A stretch of DNA of 15,180 bases from Candidatus Altimarinota bacterium (lineage in GTDB: Bacteria > Patescibacteriota > Gracilibacteria > GCA-2401425 > JAJOLG01). The stretch lies in the NCBI GenBank assembly GCA_021129445.1, contig JAJOLG010000047.1, positions 1-15,180 of the forward strand, given 5' to 3'. The position numbers and the translations under genes are program-made. Below the pieces are notes generated by a model that worked only from the letters and a program-made list of their open reading frames with translations, made no database searches and was not told the origin of the DNA. Positions 2,670 through 10,359 of this stretch are shown here, one piece after another (the first letter of the stretch is position 1; each line of letters opens with the position of its first letter).

Positions 2670-2694
2670 TTAGTTGAGACTAAGTCTCAACTAA
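2648..2694 (+). promoter_or_regulatory. candidate promoter overlapped by a perfect palindrome (probable Fur-family operator)
   Basis: A perfect inverted repeat, TTAGTTGAGACT-A-AGTCTCAACTAA, spans 2670-2694 (12-bp arms, one central base) and ends 13 nt before the ATG of the Fur-family gene. Its core TGAGACT-A-AGTCTCA has the 7-1-7 layout typical of Fur/Zur/PerR boxes and keeps their outer TGA...TCA. A consensus -35 TTGACA sits at 2648-2653. The expected -10 position falls inside the palindrome, although no good -10 hexamer is visible. The layout suits repression of the whole cluster by its first gene. It lacks a T-tract, so it is not a simple terminator. The palindrome is seen directly; its role as operator is inferred. 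Confidence 0.65.
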
Positions 2695-2707
2695 TTAGAA
2701 ATAAAAA

Positions 2708-3106
2708 ATGAACTATAAAGATATTTTAAAAAAGAATTGAATTAGTTTAACCAAACAAAGATTAGAAATTCTTGGTAAAATTGAAAAATTTCATCATTTT
2801 TCTTATATTGATTTACAAAATCAATTAAAAAATACATGAAGAGCTAGTATTTTTAGGAATTTAAAATTGTTTAATGAGGTTTGAATTATTAGAATAATAG
2901 ACTATACAGAATGAGCAATTAAATATGAATTAAATGATGACACCGTACATCATGAACATATGAAGTGTTGAAGTTGTAATGAAATTTCTGAATTTGATGA
3001 TAGTGAACTACATAGTCTTTTTGAAAAAATTTCAAAAAAAAATAATTTTAAATTAAAAAAACATTCACTTTTATTTGAGTGAGTTTGTGTAAATTGCAAT
3101 AATTAA
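2708..3106 (+). CDS. Fur-family metal-responsive transcriptional regulator
   Basis: A 132-aa protein of typical Fur/Zur/PerR length. Residues 1-75 form the winged helix (LTKQRLEILGKIEKF... then a recognition region NTGRASIFRNLKLFNEVGI at 42-60, resembling the family's ATVYRTLxxLxxxGl). The metal-sensing half has a His-rich stretch HHEHMKCGSC (81-90) and two CxxC pairs, Cys87/Cys90 and Cys127/Cys130, the standard structural Zn4Cys site. This tells Fur family but not which metal (Fe, Zn, Ni, Mn or peroxide) is sensed. It is the first gene after the perfect palindrome at 2670-2694, so autoregulation and control of the six following genes are likely. The next ATG is 13 nt downstream. Regulators of this kind are scarce in reduced CPR genomes, which strengthens the link to the neighbouring metal-type genes. 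Confidence 0.92.
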
Positions 3107-3119
3107 TAATAAAAAATAT

Positions 3120-4091
3120 ATGAGAATAGCATTTATGTGAAAATGATGAAGTTGAAAAACTACAGTTACAACATCTTTTTTGAAATATATTACAAAAGAA
3201 AGAGCCGATAAACAAAAACTAATTTTTGATGTTGATATAAATTCTCATTTGTTTAAAGAATATTCTTTAAATAAAAATGATATTAATTTTTTTTCTTGAG
3301 ATTTTTTAAAAATAGCAGATATTTTTGAGCCTGAATTTAAAAAAACATACGATTTAGACTTCATACCGAGTTTTTGAACTTTACCAATAAATAAAAATAC
3401 AAATCTAATTAAATGAGATTTATTTAATCATGATTTTGTAAAAAAATATTGATATGATTTGGATTCAACTACAAAACTTTTTACTTTGTGAAATTATATT
3501 ACAAAAAAGACTCAAATTTGAGAATGCTATCATTCTTTGTTAAACTCTTATGAACTATTGTTGCACAGAATTATTGATGACAAAAATTCTTATGTTATAG
3601 CTGATACTACAGCCTGAATAGATAATTTATGAACATCTTTATGTTTGTGATATGATATTACAATATTTGTAGTAGAGCCTTCTGAAAGGAGTGTAAGTGT
3701 TTATAAAGATTACATAAATACAGCGTGAATAGATACAGAAAGTGTATTTGTACTATGAAATAAAATAGAAGATGAAGATGATCTTGATTACATAAATAAA
3801 AATGTAAAAACTGATAAATTATTATGATTTTTAAAATTTAATAAAAAAATAAATAGAGATGAGTGAGCTGATAGATATGAATTATTTATTGAAGATAATT
3901 TATCGATATTTAATACTATTTTAGAAAAACTTGATAGCGCTGATAAAAACTGGAATTCATATTATAACCGAGTTCACAAGCTCTTTATTGATGAATCTAA
4001 ATCGTGGTTTAGCTCTTTTTATAATAAAGATTTAGAAAAAATACTAACACTTGATAAAAATTTAATAAATAAAATACAAAAATGAGAATAG
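3120..4091 (+). CDS. CooC-like P-loop ATPase, first tandem copy
   Basis: A 323-aa ATPase of the SIMIBI class. The deviant Walker A GKGGSGKTT lies at 7-15, with signature Lys8; all its glycines are TGA. Switch I FDVD is near 36-39. The Walker B/switch II region VIADTTAGIDNLG is at 159-171, then FVVEPSERSVSVYKDY (183-198) and LGNK (212-215). The order AGI(D/E)xLG ... VVEPS.RS ... GNK matches CooC, the ATPase that helps insert nickel into CO dehydrogenase. CooC carries a CxC nickel-binding motif between the switches; here the equivalent region reads GECYHSLLN, with Cys136 and His138. The C-terminal ~60 aa, rich in aromatic residues, extend beyond usual CooC length. All 18 glycines are TGA. Its 3' end overlaps the next gene by 10 nt, indicating translational coupling. 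The client protein is unknown. Confidence 0.85.
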
Positions 4092-5029
4092 CCTTTTTAT
4101 GAAAATGATGAAGTTGAAAAACAACTTTATCATGAAATTTCGCAAATTATTTAAATGCCAAAAATAAAAAAGTGTTACTGGTTGATGCTGATATTAATAT
4201 GCATTTAAATACATTAGTTTGAATCGATAGGAAAAATATAAAACCACTTTCAGACAACTGAAAATTAATAGAAAATTATATTAATAAAAATAGGAGCGAT
4301 GTTGAAAATATTCCATTTATTGGATCTATGCCACCTACTTTAAAATCAAATTTCATAAAATGAATTGATGATGAATTTTTAAATCAAATATCTTGCACAA
4401 ATGATAAATGATTAAAATTTATGGCAATTTGAAATTATAATGACAGTGATGTTTGAGTAAATTGTTATCATACAAAAACAGATAATTATATAAAATTTTT
4501 AAATCATTTTTTAGATAAAAATGATGATATTATGATTGCTGATAGTGTAACTTGAATTGATAACATATGAAATCCATTAATATATTCTTATGATTTAAAT
4601 GTGATAGTTGTTGAACCAAATCAAAAATCTTTATGAATTTACAAAGATTTTATAAAAGGTTTAGAAAATTTATGAATCGATTTAAATCTAAAAGTTGTTT
4701 GAAATAAAGTTATGGATGATGAAGATATTTTATTTTTGAAAAAAAATATAAAATCTGAGCATTTTTTATGCTATCTTAAAAAATCAAAAAATATGAAAAA
4801 TTTTGATAGATGAGATGAAGAATGATTATGATTATTTATGAAAGAACATGAAGATATTTTTGATAAAATATATAATCATTTAATTAGTGTTAAAAAAGAT
4901 TACGAAAAATATTATAAAAATATTTTAGATAATCATAAATTCGTTTCTAATTCTTACTATAATGATTATTACAATATAGATTTTAATAAATTTATAGATC
5001 CTGATTTTAATTTTAATAAAGTATTATAA
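4082..5029 (+). CDS. CooC-like P-loop ATPase, second tandem copy
   Basis: A 315-aa paralogue of the preceding gene. The first 15 residues match except position 6 (MRIAFL versus MRIAFM), including Walker A GKGGSGKTT at 7-15. The DNA at the two starts is also nearly identical, so the pair arose by tandem duplication and has diverged further in. Later landmarks: VDAD (34-37), the Cys-Tyr-His motif VNCYH (126-130) in the place of the CooC nickel-binding CxC, IADSVTGIDNIGN (152-164), VIVVEPNQKS (174-183) and VVGNK (205-209). The C-terminal region from about 255, rich in Tyr and Asn, resembles that of the first copy in length and style. ATPases of this class act as dimers, so a heterodimer of the two copies is an attractive guess. 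The stop TAA shares one base with the next ATG. Confidence 0.85.
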
Positions 5030-6495
5030 TGGAATATGCTTCAATAAAACCTTTTCTTCATGAAAAAGTAGAAAAAATTATAAATAATACAGAAAAATTA
5101 TTTGATTTATCATGACTCCATAATGGACCTATTCATGTTTTAGTGCCAGAAATAATGAATGATAATATAAAAGCTTTTAATAAAGTTTTTGATGATTTAG
5201 AAATGAATTGAATTATTAAATATGCTCATAAGACTAATAAGTCAAAAGCTTTATTGTTTCAAGCTTATAAGAATAATTTGTGAGTAGATGTTGCAAGTGA
5301 AGAAGAATTAAAAAATGTTTTATCTGTTTGATTTACATGAGATAAAATTAGCTGTACTTGACCAAAAAGTAAATCATTTTTATTTTTAGCATTATCACAT
5401 AAATGTCTAATTAGCATTGATAATTTAGATGAAATAAAAAAAATTATAGAATTAAGTGAAAAATTTAATTTTAAAAAAGTAAATATTTTAATTCGTTTTC
5501 ATGATTTATCTTGAAATGACAGAAAGCTTGTAAAGAAAAATACAAAATTTTGAATATCTAAAAATAATTTATTGGAAGTTTTAGATATTATTAAAGATTT
5601 TAAATTTATAGATATAAAATGAGTTCATTTTCATTATGATGAGCATCAACATGAAATAAAATCATGAAGTATCAATGATGCCCTTTCTGTTATAAAAAAA
5701 CTTTACGAGAATAACTATTCTCCAACTATAATAGATATTTGATGAGGTTTTAGAGGAAGAGAACTTGATTCTAAATTAGAATGGAGTAATTACATAGATT
5801 TTTTATCTGATAAAAGAAGAAAAAAATTTGATACTCATACTTGGTGAAACTGATGATATTGAATAAAAGTAAATGAAAGATGATGAATAGATTGAAGAGA
5901 ATTTGTTGAAAAAAGATATAGAGAAGTAGATAATTATGATTTTTTATCTAAAATTTTAAAAAAAGATTTTAAAAATTGATATACTTTATACGAAGAAATA
6001 AATGATTCAATGCTTAATTTAATGATAGAGCCATGATACTCTTTGTCGAGTAATACGTGATTTTCTATATTCAGAGTAGATTGATATAAAACTGTTTCTT
6101 CATGAGATGAGGCAATAATTATAAATTGAAATATTTTAAATCTTTCTAGTAAAATGTGGGAATATTTTGCTGATCCAATACATTTAATAAAAGATAAAAA
6201 AATAGAAAATAATAAAAATAATTTAGAAAAAAATATTAATCCTGAAGAATTTTATTGATACATACTTTGAAATCTTTGTAGGGATGATGATATTTTAATT
6301 AAAAGAAAAATTTATTTCAAACAAAAACCAGAAGAATGAGATTTAATAATTTTTCCAAATACATCTTCATATGTATCAGATTTTGAAGATTGAAGCCCTA
6401 TAATGCAAAATAAATGAAAAAAATTTGTAGCAACTGTAAAAGAGTGAAATGTAAAATTTTACGAAGATAATTTATATAACTTAATTAATTTATAA
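5029..6495 (+). CDS. Y4yA-family PLP-dependent enzyme (fold type III, decarboxylase-like)
   Basis: A 488-aa enzyme of the alanine racemase/ornithine-diaminopimelate decarboxylase fold. The PLP lysine is in YAHKTNKSKALL, at Lys68. GVDVAS follows at 85-90, then SCTGPKSK (108-115), GVHFHYDE (198-205), the phosphate-binding IDIGGGF (235-241), IEPGYSLSSNTG (333-344), and a C-terminal LGNLCRDDD (413-421) with FPNTSSYVSDFED (442-454). That last part, with LGNLC and a Tyr in place of the usual YD of DAP decarboxylase, matches what I recall of the Y4yA group named after a Rhizobium symbiosis-plasmid gene, whose members sit beside cysteine-synthase-like genes in siderophore-type clusters. An amino-acid decarboxylase reaction is the best guess; the substrate is unknown. 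Its start overlaps the previous stop, and the next gene starts 3 nt after its own. Confidence 0.85.
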
Positions 6496-6498
6496 AAC

Positions 6499-7809
6499 AT
6501 GATTTATAATAATATTTCTGAGCTTATTTGAAATACACCAATACTAAAATTGCCAGATAATTACGCTGGGATTAAAAATATAGAAATTTATGCAAAGCTG
6601 GAACATATGAATCCATTTGGTTCGTTAAAGGATAGAATTGCAAAAAATATGTTTGATGAAATCAAAGATGACGTTAAGGCCTCTGGTAAGACAATAATTG
6701 AAGCTTCTAGTTGAAATACATGAAAAGCTTTATCGATATTGTGCTCCACAAATCAAATTCCATTTAAGGCTATAACAAATAGAATAAAAATACCAGAAAT
6801 GAGAATGGCAATGCAGTGTACTTGATGTGAAATAGAGGAGCTTCCATGACTTTCAGATTGTCCAGATTTAAATGATCCAAATAGTTACACGACATTTGCT
6901 GATAATTTAGCAAAAGGTGAGCCTGAAAAATATCATTATACAGATCAATATTTTAATGAAAAAAATTGGCAAGCCCATTATAAATCATGACAGGAGGTTA
7001 TTGGTGACTTATGAGAAGTTGATTATTTTTTCTCAATGTTATGAACAACTTGATCATCTTTTTGAATGTGAAAAGCTTTTAGAGAAAAAAATGAAAATAC
7101 TGAAATATATTGAGTTGTAGCAAAATCTTGAGAACATATTCCTTGAGCAAGAAATTCAAATGAGCTCTGGGAAGTGTGATTTTATGATAGAGATTTTTAT
7201 ACTGATATTTTACTTGAAACTTGAAAATGAGCTACTGATTGATCAATTAAGTTGATTCAAGACTTATGATTATTAGCTTGACCAACTGCCTGATGAACTT
7301 TTACCTCAGCTTTAAAAAAGTTAAAAGAATTAGATAAAAAATTGGATTGAACGAAAGAGAAGAAAAAAGCTGTTTTTTTAGTTTGTGACAGAGTGGAGTT
7401 GTATTTTAATTATTTAAACGGTGTTTCACCTGAAATTTTTTCTGAATCCACGTCTTCAAGAAAAAAAGTTTCAGATATGAAATCTGAAACAGATAAAGAA
7501 TTTATTTTAAGTTCCGACTTTGTAGAAAAAAATAAAGATGATTTTATTATGATTGATATCAGATGAAATTTTCCATATTCAATATGACACATCGAGTGAT
7601 CTTTAAATATAATCGATGAACATTTAACTTCTATGGTTGAAGAGTGAAAAGTTTTTCCTAAAAAGAAAAAATTATTAATTATTTGTAGAATCTGAAAAAA
7701 CTCTGCCCAATATGTAAATTTTTTAAGAGAACAGTGATATGAAGCTTTTATGCTTGCTTCGTGATTAAGCTGATGGAAAAAAGACTGATTAAATCTTATT
7801 AAGGATTAG
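6499..7809 (+). CDS. cysteine-synthase-like PLP enzyme fused to a rhodanese domain
   Basis: A 436-aa two-domain protein. Residues 1-300 are a fold type II PLP enzyme related to CysK and SbnA: IGNTPILKL near 10-18, PLP lysine Lys44 in NPFGSLKDR, the substrate loop SSGNTG at 70-75, a phosphate-binding loop GTTGSS at 182-187 in place of GTGGT, and GPTAGG at 261-266. After a lysine-rich linker, residues 335-436 form a rhodanese: IDIRGNFPYSIGHIEGSLNI (352-371) and the active-site loop CRIGKNS with Cys396, then SGLSGWK. The catalytic cysteine is present, so sulfur transfer is possible. YTDQYFN and DYFFSMLGTTGS resemble SbnA, the enzyme making the precursor of L-2,3-diaminopropionate, more than plain CysK. 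Fusion to rhodanese suggests that sulfur, persulfide or a thiol product is involved. The methyltransferase gene follows after 8 nt. Confidence 0.88.
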
Positions 7810-7817
7810 AATCTTTT

Positions 7818-8528
7818 ATGAATAATAATTTAATTTGTGATGTAAATAATTACATATTTACAAAAATTAATGAAGACAGAAAGATAAAATTCAAAGAACT
7901 TTTTTGAGAAATAAAATGATGAAGAGGTTTGGATTTATGATCTTGATTTACTTGAATTTACTGGCTTCTTTCTTATGTAGAAAAAATTGAATCTATAGAT
8001 TATTTTGATTATTTTGATAATAATATTAAAAAATTAGAAGAAATATTAAATAATATTTCTCCAGAATATTTAAATGAAAATTTTTCTGATACAATTAATT
8101 TTTTAGAAGAAGAAAAATTTATTCAAAAAAATTCTGAAGAATTGTGTATTAATATAATTGAAAAAGTTGGTGAAATAAAGCAATTTAATTTTTTTAATGA
8201 AATTAATAATGGAAATAACGGTGATTATGATTTTATAATTTCAAGTGAAGCTATTGAATGTGTAGAAAATTATGAAGATTTTAAAAAAGTTGTAAAAAAT
8301 ATTTATAATGGTTTAAATATTTGATGATTATTTATTTGAAATATTTTAGAATATAAAGAGAGAAATAGTATTACAGATGATTTAATAAAAAATAAACAGG
8401 AATGAAAATTGAATCCATCAATTAAAACTATTAAAAAAGCATTTTTAGAAATTTGATTTGAAATTAAAAAGTTAAAATTAATAAAAAATAATAGATGAAA
8501 TTTAATTTATTTTGTTGGAAAAAAATAA
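7818..8528 (+). CDS. class I SAM-dependent methyltransferase, small-molecule type
   Basis: A 236-aa protein with the Rossmann-fold SAM motif I LDLGSGFTG at 38-46, an acidic motif II after ESIDYFDYFDNN (58-69), and motif IV/V region YDFIISSEAIECVENYEDFKKV (137-158) followed by LNIGGLFIGNIL (166-177), the post-motif IxGG turn. The pattern LDxGSGxTGIYxLLS..E.I...DY.D.N...LE resembles the nicotinamide/phenylethanolamine N-methyltransferase group, suggesting a small amine substrate; this is a resemblance, not an assignment. It contains a middle stretch rich in Glu, Asn and Ile (80-130). It sits 8 nt after the CysK-rhodanese gene, so it probably acts in the same pathway, for example N- or S-methylating an amino-acid-derived product. 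A non-coding gap of about 48 nt follows. Confidence 0.82.
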
Positions 8529-8576
8529 ATTAGATTTATAATTAAATAAAAAAATTTAAAATAATAAAAATATTTT

Positions 8577-8624
8577 ATGAAAAAAATAATCCTATTCGTG
8601 CTATTCTGAATAATTTTATGATAA
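8577..8624 (+). CDS. 15-aa hydrophobic upstream frame overlapping the transporter start
   Basis: An ATG preceded by the A-rich AATAATAAAAATATTTT leader opens a 15-codon frame, MKKIILFVLFGIILG, ending in TAA at 8622-8624. Its end overlaps the ATG of the transporter (8618) in a different frame. The peptide closely resembles the transporter's own signal sequence (MIKKIIKYFLILFIILG), as if that segment had been duplicated. It could be a leader peptide that couples translation, or the better-initiated remnant of the old start. It is too short to be confident. Confidence 0.35.
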
Positions 8625-10279
8625 AAAAAATTATAAAATATTTTTTGATATTATTTATAATATTGTGAAACTTTAATACTATTAATGATATTAAAGCACA
8701 CCCTTTAGATGTTTCAATTTCAGTCTTTGAACTATGAAATTGAAAAAAAATAAAGGCAAAAACCTTTTTACACTTTTTTGAAGTTGGGTTTTTATTAGAT
8801 CAGAAGTGAGAAAAAATTGATAATTTTGAAGAAATTTTTGAGAAAAAAGAAATTTTTGAAAATTTTTTTAGAGAGAAAAATTTATTTAAAAATAATTGAA
8901 AAACCTGTTTAATAAATAATTTTGAAATTTCAAAACAGCAAGAATTTGAAGTTTACTCAGATTGATTAAGGCTTGATTATAAAATTATTTGTCCAGATAG
9001 AATTGAAAATTTTTATTTTGAAAATAGAATGTTTATTGAAGATTTTGATCTTCAAACAAATAAAATGTTATTTTTCCAAGGAAAATCCCAAAATCCTATT
9101 TATGAAAAAATTTTAACTTCAAAAATTTTTTCAAATGAATTTTCTTTAGCTAATCCAAAAAATTCTGATAAAGATTCTGATTGAGATTGACTTTATGATA
9201 AAGAGGAAGTGATTTATTGAACAGATCCAAATTTGATGGATAGTGATTTTGATATGTATTCTGATTGATTAGAAGTGAATGATTGATGGAATCCTTTGAA
9301 TCCAGAAAATTCACCTGGTCAAAAACTTTTAGTAAATATTGAAAATGCAAAACAAGAAAGATTGAATTATCTTTCAAATCAAGATAATTGAATAATATTT
9401 GAAAAAATAAATGTTAATTCTTGAGAAGAAAATTTAGAAAATACTTGAGAAAAAATTTCTGATGAAAATAAAATTTTTTTAGACTCTGAAAAAAATTTAA
9501 ATGAAGATTTAGAAAAAAAATCAGATAATAAAATTATTAAAGAAGTTTCCAGAGAAACAAGTGATTATTCTCTTTGATGATGAGTTCTAAAAGATACTTT
9601 GGAATTGGTTTCAAAACAAATTTGAAAAACTTGAGAGGGAAATTTTTATTTAATGATTTTCTTTGTGTTTCTTTTGTGAGTTTTACATGTTTTGGCTCCA
9701 TGACATTGAAAAGGTGTTTTGGCAGCTTATTTAATGGAAAAAAGTAGTGGTTTTAAAGTTGTTTTTAGTTATTCTTTAATTTTTACCTTTACTCATTTAA
9801 TTGATATTATTGCTATTGCAGTTGTAATTAAGGTTTTCTCTCTTTGGGCGACAATTTGAGCTTATATCTGAGTTTTACAAAAAATTTGAATAATTGGATT
9901 ATTTCTCTTTTCTTTATTTTTTCTTTATAATGCTTTTAAGAATCATAAAACTTTGAGTTGTTCCTGTTGATCTTGTAAATCAAAAAAACTCTTTAATTCA
10001 CCTTTTTTACTTTGAATTTTATCTTGAATTGCACCCTGTAGTTATGGCTGGGTTCTTTTTCTTACAGTTCTTTCACTATGAAGAATAGAGTGGTTATTTC
10101 CAGTAATGTGAGTTTTTGCTCTTTGAATTTTTTTTACAATTTTTGCATTTTGATCTACAATTGTAATTTTGAAAGTTAAAACCCTTTGAAGATATGATAA
10201 TTTTGCTAAATACTCTGGAATTGTTTCTTGATTAGTTTTATTTGGGCTTTCGGTTTATTTGTTGTTTAGTGTTTTTTAA
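8618..10279 (+). CDS. NicO/RcnA-like Ni/Co transporter with large extracytoplasmic Ca-binding-type region
   Basis: A 553-aa membrane protein. Residues 1-28 look like a signal peptide ending before AHPLDVS, the start of the mature region in NicO-type proteins. Residues 28-320 are outside the membrane and include aspartate-rich thrombospondin type 3/EF-hand-like repeats at about 184-224 (DKDSDGDG, then TDPN and DSDFDMYSDG), followed by an acidic Glu/Asn/Lys linker. Residues 343-553 hold about six helices: LHVLAPGHGKGV (356-367), matching the NicO HxLxPGH core, FTHLID (391-396) and SGIAPCSYGW (469-478). A loop CSCGSC at 448-453 offers metal-binding cysteines. Typical RcnA is near 275-370 aa, so this one is long. 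Family members either import or export Ni/Co; direction is not decidable here. As the last gene of a Fur-headed cluster it is probably the metal or ligand transporter. A strong hairpin follows. Confidence 0.85.
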
Positions 10280-10315
10280 TAATTTTTCTCTCAAACGCTA
10301 CCCTGAAACAAAAAG

Positions 10316-10359
10316 TCTAAGATTTTAAAGCATTTCTTTAAGATCTTAGATTTTTTCTT
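10316..10359 (+). terminator. strong rho-independent terminator after the metal-linked cluster
   Basis: TCTAAGATTTTAAAG (10316-10330) pairs with CTTTAAGATCTTAGA (10336-10350), a 15-bp stem with one G-U pair and a 5-nt loop, followed by TTTTTTCTT. A run of A precedes it, so it may also stop transcription coming from the right. Confidence 0.88.

Follow-up and report, generated by a model that had tools for sequence, protein, structure and literature searches.

The operon

The window analysed here is a 15,180-nucleotide stretch of DNA from Candidatus Altimarinota bacterium, and represents an entire contig (JAJOLG010000047.1) of a 673-kb draft genome of 77 contigs that is about 95% complete. The subject of this report is an operon on its plus strand (2708-10279), where open reading frame (ORF) calling with genetic code 25 gives seven same-strand ORFs. 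The first encodes a Fur-family regulator of 132 amino acids (aa) (2708-3106; PF01475, E=4e-24). It is followed by two CooC-like P-loop ATPases, the first assigned by its CbiA/MinD class and a C-x-H alignment, with the motif C-Y-H (3120-4091), and the second by AlphaFold, Foldseek and a family profile, with the motif Cys128-Tyr-His130 (4082-5029). Then come a 488-aa fold-type III pyridoxal phosphate (PLP) decarboxylase of the LysA/ODC/BtrK/SbnH superfamily (5029-6495; PF02784, E=3e-24), a 436-aa CysM-like PLP enzyme with a C-terminal rhodanese domain (6499-7809; PF00291 and PF00581), an NNMT/PNMT/TEMT-like S-adenosylmethionine methyltransferase (7818-8528; PF01234, E=2e-10) and a membrane protein (8618-10279). 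The genes are tightly packed: fur and ATPase 1 are 13 nt apart, the two ATPase genes overlap by 10 nt, ATPase 2 and the decarboxylase overlap by 1 nt, and gaps of 3, 8 and 89 nt precede the CysM-rhodanese, methyltransferase and membrane protein genes, respectively. An intrinsic terminator-like hairpin found by a terminator scan lies at the 3' end (10311-10355, plus strand); the region has two such sites, against 0.6 expected in shuffles. The original prediction had this layout right, from regulator to membrane protein and terminator. Unmentioned in it was a perfect 12-1-12 palindrome of 25 bp directly 5' of fur (2670-2694, TTAGTTGAGACT-A-AGTCTCAACTAA), a candidate Fur-family operator.

Code 25 (TGA = Gly), also part of that prediction, is supported because homologues read with table 11 carry glycine at the TGA positions. 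The CysK-type gene has 32 TGA codons, at which glycine is found in 71% of cases, compared with 3% elsewhere, and for the decarboxylase the values are 55% and 5%.

Two PLP enzymes conserved as a unit

A genome-wide pattern scan of GTDB gave 415 candidate loci, of which 80 were kept (L and G numbers below are our handles for loci and genomes). These are spread over bacteria of the Candidate Phyla Radiation (CPR), Obscuribacterales, Alphaproteobacteria including Micavibrio, Magnetococcales, Bacilli, Tissierellales, Ktedonobacteria, Nocardia, Streptomyces, Actinoplanes, Woesearchaeota and Nanohaloarchaea. The decarboxylase gene is directly 5' of the CysM-rhodanese gene in all 78 loci where the contig is long enough (L025 and L075 are excluded), and a SufS-type cysteine desulfurase that keeps the catalytic-Cys loop is present in 74 of 86 loci, usually after the pair. 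An ATPase gene precedes the pair mainly outside the actinobacteria; the order ATPase-decarboxylase-CysM-rhodanese is found in G315, G320, G405 and G338, and in G370, of the same GTDB class as the window, a 49%-identical decarboxylase follows two ATPases, as it does here. Within the window's class the decarboxylase is sporadic (5 of 353 genomes), which suggests transfer or loss. Relatives of the decarboxylase were looked for in viral contigs and none was seen. In L013 (G003:C23, 8956-11931), from a genome of the window's phylum that uses the standard code, the ATPase-decarboxylase-CysM-rhodanese region is broken by stops and frame breaks and is a decaying copy of the module.

Are these enzymes simply LysA and CysK under other names? 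The CysM-rhodanese protein has the catalytic Lys44, the rhodanese Cys396, the CysM-type IPGxR Arg218 and a Cys121 specific to the family, and each of the four is kept in 86 of 86 homologues; E. coli CysK, E. coli CysM and a SbnA lack both Cys121 and the rhodanese domain. Its scores are far from the equivalog cut-offs of CysM (137 vs 394 bits) and CysK (107 vs 351 bits), and from that of the SbnA model (118 vs 350 bits). No other CysK homologue is present in the window genome, a circumstance that the original prediction had linked to general amino-acid metabolism, but the protein does not group with ordinary CysK, CysM or SbnA: the CysM-rhodanese proteins all fall together in a clade that excludes these. 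The nearest solved structures include CysM, and the CysM part is also matched by PDB 8h4h/8h4q, a 'Rhodanese domain-containing protein' for which no paper was found in the openly licensed literature.

The decarboxylase has an invariant catalytic Lys68 and an invariant Cys417, and carries EPG-Tyr337 at the position where E. coli LysA has Arg. It does not reach the curated LysA equivalog (96.6 vs 297.9 bits) and is about 25% identical to Y4yA. The decarboxylase tree did not cleanly separate E. coli LysA, which sits on a long branch, from the family, so that the apartness of this enzyme rests on scores and synteny. The structural model (pLDDT, the predicted local distance difference test, 87.9) is about equally near to LysA, ODC, BtrK and SbnH (Z about 29-33), and a choice of substrate from structure was dropped. 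Both enzyme trees place the window in the same group of eleven (support 0.995 and 1.0), save for loci truncated for one gene. The 'SbnA-like' and 'Y4yA-like' labels given earlier are a superfamily resemblance and not membership, and neither an SbnB nor an NRPS-independent siderophore (NIS) synthetase gene is present in the window. Together, the joint occurrence in many phyla and the separate CysM-rhodanese clade set the pair apart from ordinary LysA and CysK, and go against the outcome that would have refuted the original prediction.

Two related arrangements were seen. In L127 (5923-4472), L128 (5727-4261) and L130 (6258-7664), a diverged CysK-rhodanese family of 468-488 aa comes after a C-x-H ATPase, and a decarboxylase is lacking; the family's PFGSVKDR motif is changed and both cysteines are kept. 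In L039 and other Obscuribacterales loci the module is surrounded, in fixed order, by Asp/Asn beta-hydroxylase-like and FAD amine-oxidase-like proteins, methyltransferases and a second ATPase.

ATPases with a C-x-H motif

The closest characterized relative of the ATPases is CooC1. The AlphaFold model of ATPase 2 (pLDDT 92.8) has CooC1 as its best Foldseek match (E=1.5e-11; next 6e-8), and the family profile finds CooC1 at E=4.5e-32 along residues 1-220 (next match 4e-12). VIA-align places the nitrogenase Fe protein slightly above CooC1 (Z 20.8 and 18.7), but Foldseek and the profile favour CooC1. A deviant Walker A, GKGGxGKT, and the MinD/NifH-type fold are present. C128-Y-H130 of ATPase 2 aligns on C-Y-C of CooC1, and all 58 of 58 family members have C-[YFLS]-H (C-x-H) in place of the C-x-C nickel motif of CooC. 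No CO dehydrogenase gene is present among the operon genes or the neighbours examined.

Genes outside the core

Methyltransferase relatives occupy the same position, or one close by, in L021, L022, L023, L037 and G315. No counterpart of the last gene was found beside related clusters, and it lies outside the conserved core. Its product consists of an N-terminal domain, a TSP3 calcium-type repeat (PF18884, E=7e-11) and, as its C-terminal half, an RcnA/NicO-like part that contains a CSCGSC cluster. The likeness to RcnA is weak (PRK10019, E=5e-4; 19 bits against a cut-off of 195), the transmembrane part is weakly like DsbD_2 (E=4e-4), and Pfam NicO (PF03824) gives no match at E<=0.01. The NicO/RcnA transporter label proposed earlier is therefore weak; the protein is probably an accessory transporter. 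Just 5' of this gene a 15-codon ATG frame (8578-8625) encodes a second signal-peptide-like stretch (MKKIILFVLFGIILG), possibly the leftover of a duplicated start. Two protein genes 5' of the operon there is a small membrane protein of 151 aa (1088-1543) with a GCPACS motif and without any Pfam or NCBIfam match. In two alphaproteobacterial bins, MacB/FtsX-type ABC transporter genes lie directly 3' of the module (L022, 12957-14920; L086, 11023-13067), and these represent a possible exporter of the product.

The regulator and the metal

The 15-bp core of the palindrome, TGAGACTAAGTCTCA, has its sole exact match in the 673-kb genome at this site, and the regulator is the single FUR-domain protein detected genome-wide. 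The regulator thus looks dedicated to the operon. Near matches of the core (three or fewer mismatches) are at chance level, 27 compared with 23 for a control pattern, and a regulon built on them was dropped. The FUR domain contains the zinc-site cysteines CxxC...CxxC.

Which metal is involved? The original prediction pointed to nickel or cobalt. With C-x-H ATPases that have no C-x-C, and with the gene neighbourhoods of other lineages, zinc is probably the metal indicated. In a Micavibrio locus (L047) the genes SufS-ATPase-decarboxylase-CysM-Zur overlap or nearly touch, and the regulator scores 102 bits as Zur against 41 for the next family. Another regulator, in L026, scores 84 against 47, and there Zur-DUF1007-NicO lies beside the module; we take this set to resemble the Haemophilus zinc genes zevAB, as a lead only. 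L085 has the order ATPase-decarboxylase-CysM-SufS-Fur-ArsP-DUF1980. COG0523 GTPases are neighbours in about ten loci (G320, G405, L018, L032, L037, L084, L086, L089, L095 and L097), and in the Streptomyces L095 and L097 small ORFs beside COG0523 are, as assigned by eye from sequence, paralogues of S14, L28, L33 and L32. Zinc-free ribosomal paralogues and COG0523 belong to the listed Zur regulon (PMC6103462). Zur-like 7-1-7 boxes upstream of the module beat 95% of random same-locus segments in 19 of 81 loci, where about four are expected; among these are a perfect box in L030 (TGAAAATGATTTTCA) and the box TGAAAACGATTATCA in L071.

Neither ZnuA nor COG0523 was detected in the window genome, a positive control having been run for each, and the operon may therefore be the chief zinc route of the organism, with the caveat that 5% of the genome is missing from the draft.

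Two loci have CooC-like ATPases in other company. L126 (G570:C24, 1-2145), in a genome of the window's class, has a ZIP zinc transporter and Fur on the same strand and a divergent C-x-H ATPase, with no biosynthetic genes. L131 (G409:C25, 86-4068), also from that class, is a tight operon in which a nicotianamine synthase gene (PF03059, E=1.7e-39) is joined by genes for two CooC-like ATPases, neither with C-x-H, and for a COG0523-like GTPase; it is a second ligand-plus-ATPase combination. A nicotianamine-synthase-like gene was seen only there and is absent from the window operon.

A putative pathway and its alternatives

The operon is fairly likely to be the local version of a widespread zinc-starvation module that makes a small, decarboxylated, sulfur-containing ligand and has dedicated ATP-driven metallochaperones. 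This agrees with the earlier proposal of a metal-regulated biosynthetic operon for a small amino-acid-derived ligand, which the synteny in many phyla supports as a reading. Where that proposal left a choice between a methylated and a sulfur-containing ligand, sulfur is now the better supported, by the invariant rhodanese Cys and by the SufS-type desulfurase in the core elsewhere.

We infer an order of reactions, a product and a role for the ATPases as follows, with zinc as the metal in the window organism. Metal shortage would take the Fur-family repressor off the palindrome and the operon would be made. The CysM-rhodanese enzyme might turn an activated, serine-like substrate into an aminoacrylate and then accept sulfur from the rhodanese-cysteine persulfide, to give a sulfur-containing amino acid. 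Elsewhere the persulfide would be loaded by the neighbouring SufS-type desulfurase, and in the window organism, as no class-V enzyme was detected there, by another donor. Since SufS sulfur comes from cysteine, and remaking cysteine would be futile, the acceptor is probably something other than plain serine, or the product has extra sulfur. The decarboxylase would take off the carboxyl group and the methyltransferase might cap N or S, and the result would be a small ligand for metal. By analogy to CooC with nickel, the pair of C-x-H ATPases could be metallochaperones that use ATP to load or unload the metal, which is most likely zinc, and the last gene might encode a lineage-specific transporter of metal or ligand.

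Several findings weigh against this scheme. All of the zinc evidence comes from genomes other than the window's. The solved structures closest to the window regulator are Fur and not Zur, family models score it best as Fur/PerR and lower as Zur, and its palindrome has four mismatches to TGAAAATNATTTTCA, the actinobacterial-type Zur box. An attempt to read the sensed metal from the Fur sequence was given up, the regulator being nearer to Fur/PerR than to Zur. In a shuffle test of the Zur boxes 17 of 81 loci are at p<=0.05, yet so are 7 of 68 control regions, and the enrichment is modest. The window genome has no class-V enzyme (SufS/IscS) that could be detected with positive controls run, and the loci share no dedicated exporter or receptor. 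The invariance of Cys121 is partly ascertainment; this residue was part of one of the two locus-search patterns and Cys396 of neither. Cys121 is also present in loci found without patterns (G315, G320, G405 and two plasmid-collection Streptomyces).

Could the metal be nickel, cobalt or iron, or could the operon assemble a metal-sulfur cofactor, with the ATPases inserting metal into a target protein in CooC fashion and the sulfur enzymes giving sulfide? This alternative is unlikely. CooC1 is the nearest characterized relative of the ATPase, the last gene is RcnA-like and the window Fur is Fur-like, all of which fit, but C-x-C is replaced throughout the ATPase family, no CODH (CO dehydrogenase) or hydrogenase gene is found among the neighbours examined, and other lineages have a true Zur and zinc genes. 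A supply of sulfide, moreover, needs neither a decarboxylase nor a methyltransferase.

Likewise improbable is a zinc-sparing bypass, in which a sulfur or amino-acid step is replaced by a zinc-independent one under zinc shortage and no ligand is made. Zinc-free ribosomal paralogues are indeed neighbours of the module, and Zur regulons often hold such paralogues and include zinc-free enzymes (PMC6103462); the three PLP enzymes and the lack of a dedicated uptake receptor also suit a bypass. The C-x-H CooC-like ATPase and the methyltransferases, however, point to metal ligand chemistry, as does the nicotianamine synthase by CooC-like ATPases in another genome. The window genome, with its single CysK and no detected SufS/IscS, has little ordinary cysteine metabolism to bypass. 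Ordinary lysine and cysteine metabolism beside unrelated genes, for which the LysA and CysK superfamilies and the single-copy CysK might speak, is highly improbable and was rejected on synteny kept in unrelated phyla and on the CysM-rhodanese tree, with scores far under both equivalog cut-offs and a predicted dedicated regulator and operator also against it.

The zinc-starvation module may have a wider significance, which is put forward tentatively. It might represent a new and widespread class of prokaryotic zinc homeostasis, where the decarboxylase and the CysM-rhodanese enzyme, the latter fed with persulfide, together give a thiol or thioether ligand, and ATP-driven C-x-H members of the CooC superfamily serve as zinc chaperones that shuttle the metal from ligand to protein or back. 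Such a class would be common to actinobacteria, Obscuribacterales, predatory alphaproteobacteria, CPR bacteria and DPANN archaea, and in the 0.67-Mb window genome would be the main remaining means of zinc acquisition that was detected. If true, hundreds of genomes, those of free-living actinomycetes among them, hold a metal-ligand pathway that has not been described, and the CooC family gains an ATP-dependent zinc-chaperone branch. It would also explain zinc handling in an extremely reduced bacterium in which ZnuA, COG0523 and a cysteine desulfurase were not detected.

Comparison with known systems

CooC1 (PDB 3kje-3kji), which inserts nickel for CO dehydrogenase, shares with the window-type ATPases the SIMIBI dimer-type fold, the GKGGxGKT signature and an aligned Cys of the metal motif. 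The window-type proteins differ by C-x-H, by a helical C-terminal part of greater length (about 315 aa vs 254) and by their gene partners, which are the decarboxylase, CysM-rhodanese and Fur/Zur instead of CODH.

Staphyloferrin B SbnA/SbnH and the plasmid SbnA-FAD/OCD-Y4yA clusters also combine a CysK-type enzyme with a fold-III decarboxylase to build a chelator, and the window decarboxylase is close to SbnH in fold (Z about 30). However, the window has no SbnB/OCD and no NIS synthetase, and its CysM-like enzyme has the rhodanese fusion and an extra Cys.

The Zur-controlled zincophore clusters, i.e. coelibactin, ethylenediaminedisuccinate (EDDS) and pseudopaline/staphylopine (PMC6103462, PMC7438024), resemble the module in being small biosynthetic operons and, for the module elsewhere, in the zinc-regulon neighbourhood; CooC-like ATPases adjoin nicotianamine synthase in G409. 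In place of nicotianamine synthase, opine dehydrogenase or a nonribosomal peptide synthetase, the window has sulfur-transfer enzymes and ATPases, with no conserved exporter or receptor.

Cysteine synthases fed by sulfur carriers (CysM/CysO) and the pyridine-2,6-dithiocarboxylic acid (PDTC) and quinolobactin operons (PMC1779556) offer a further parallel, as a PLP enzyme of cysteine-synthase type is fed by a protein sulfur carrier and sulfur chemistry is used in metallophore synthesis. In the module the rhodanese is fused to the CysM domain and SufS is the partner; no ThiS, JAB or E1 proteins were seen in the neighbourhoods. A literature search on this gene combination found nothing relevant, which is weak evidence as it covered openly licensed papers only. 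Metal-regulated ligand synthesis is a known kind of system; it is the set of enzymes with C-x-H CooC-type ATPases that appears to be undescribed in that literature.

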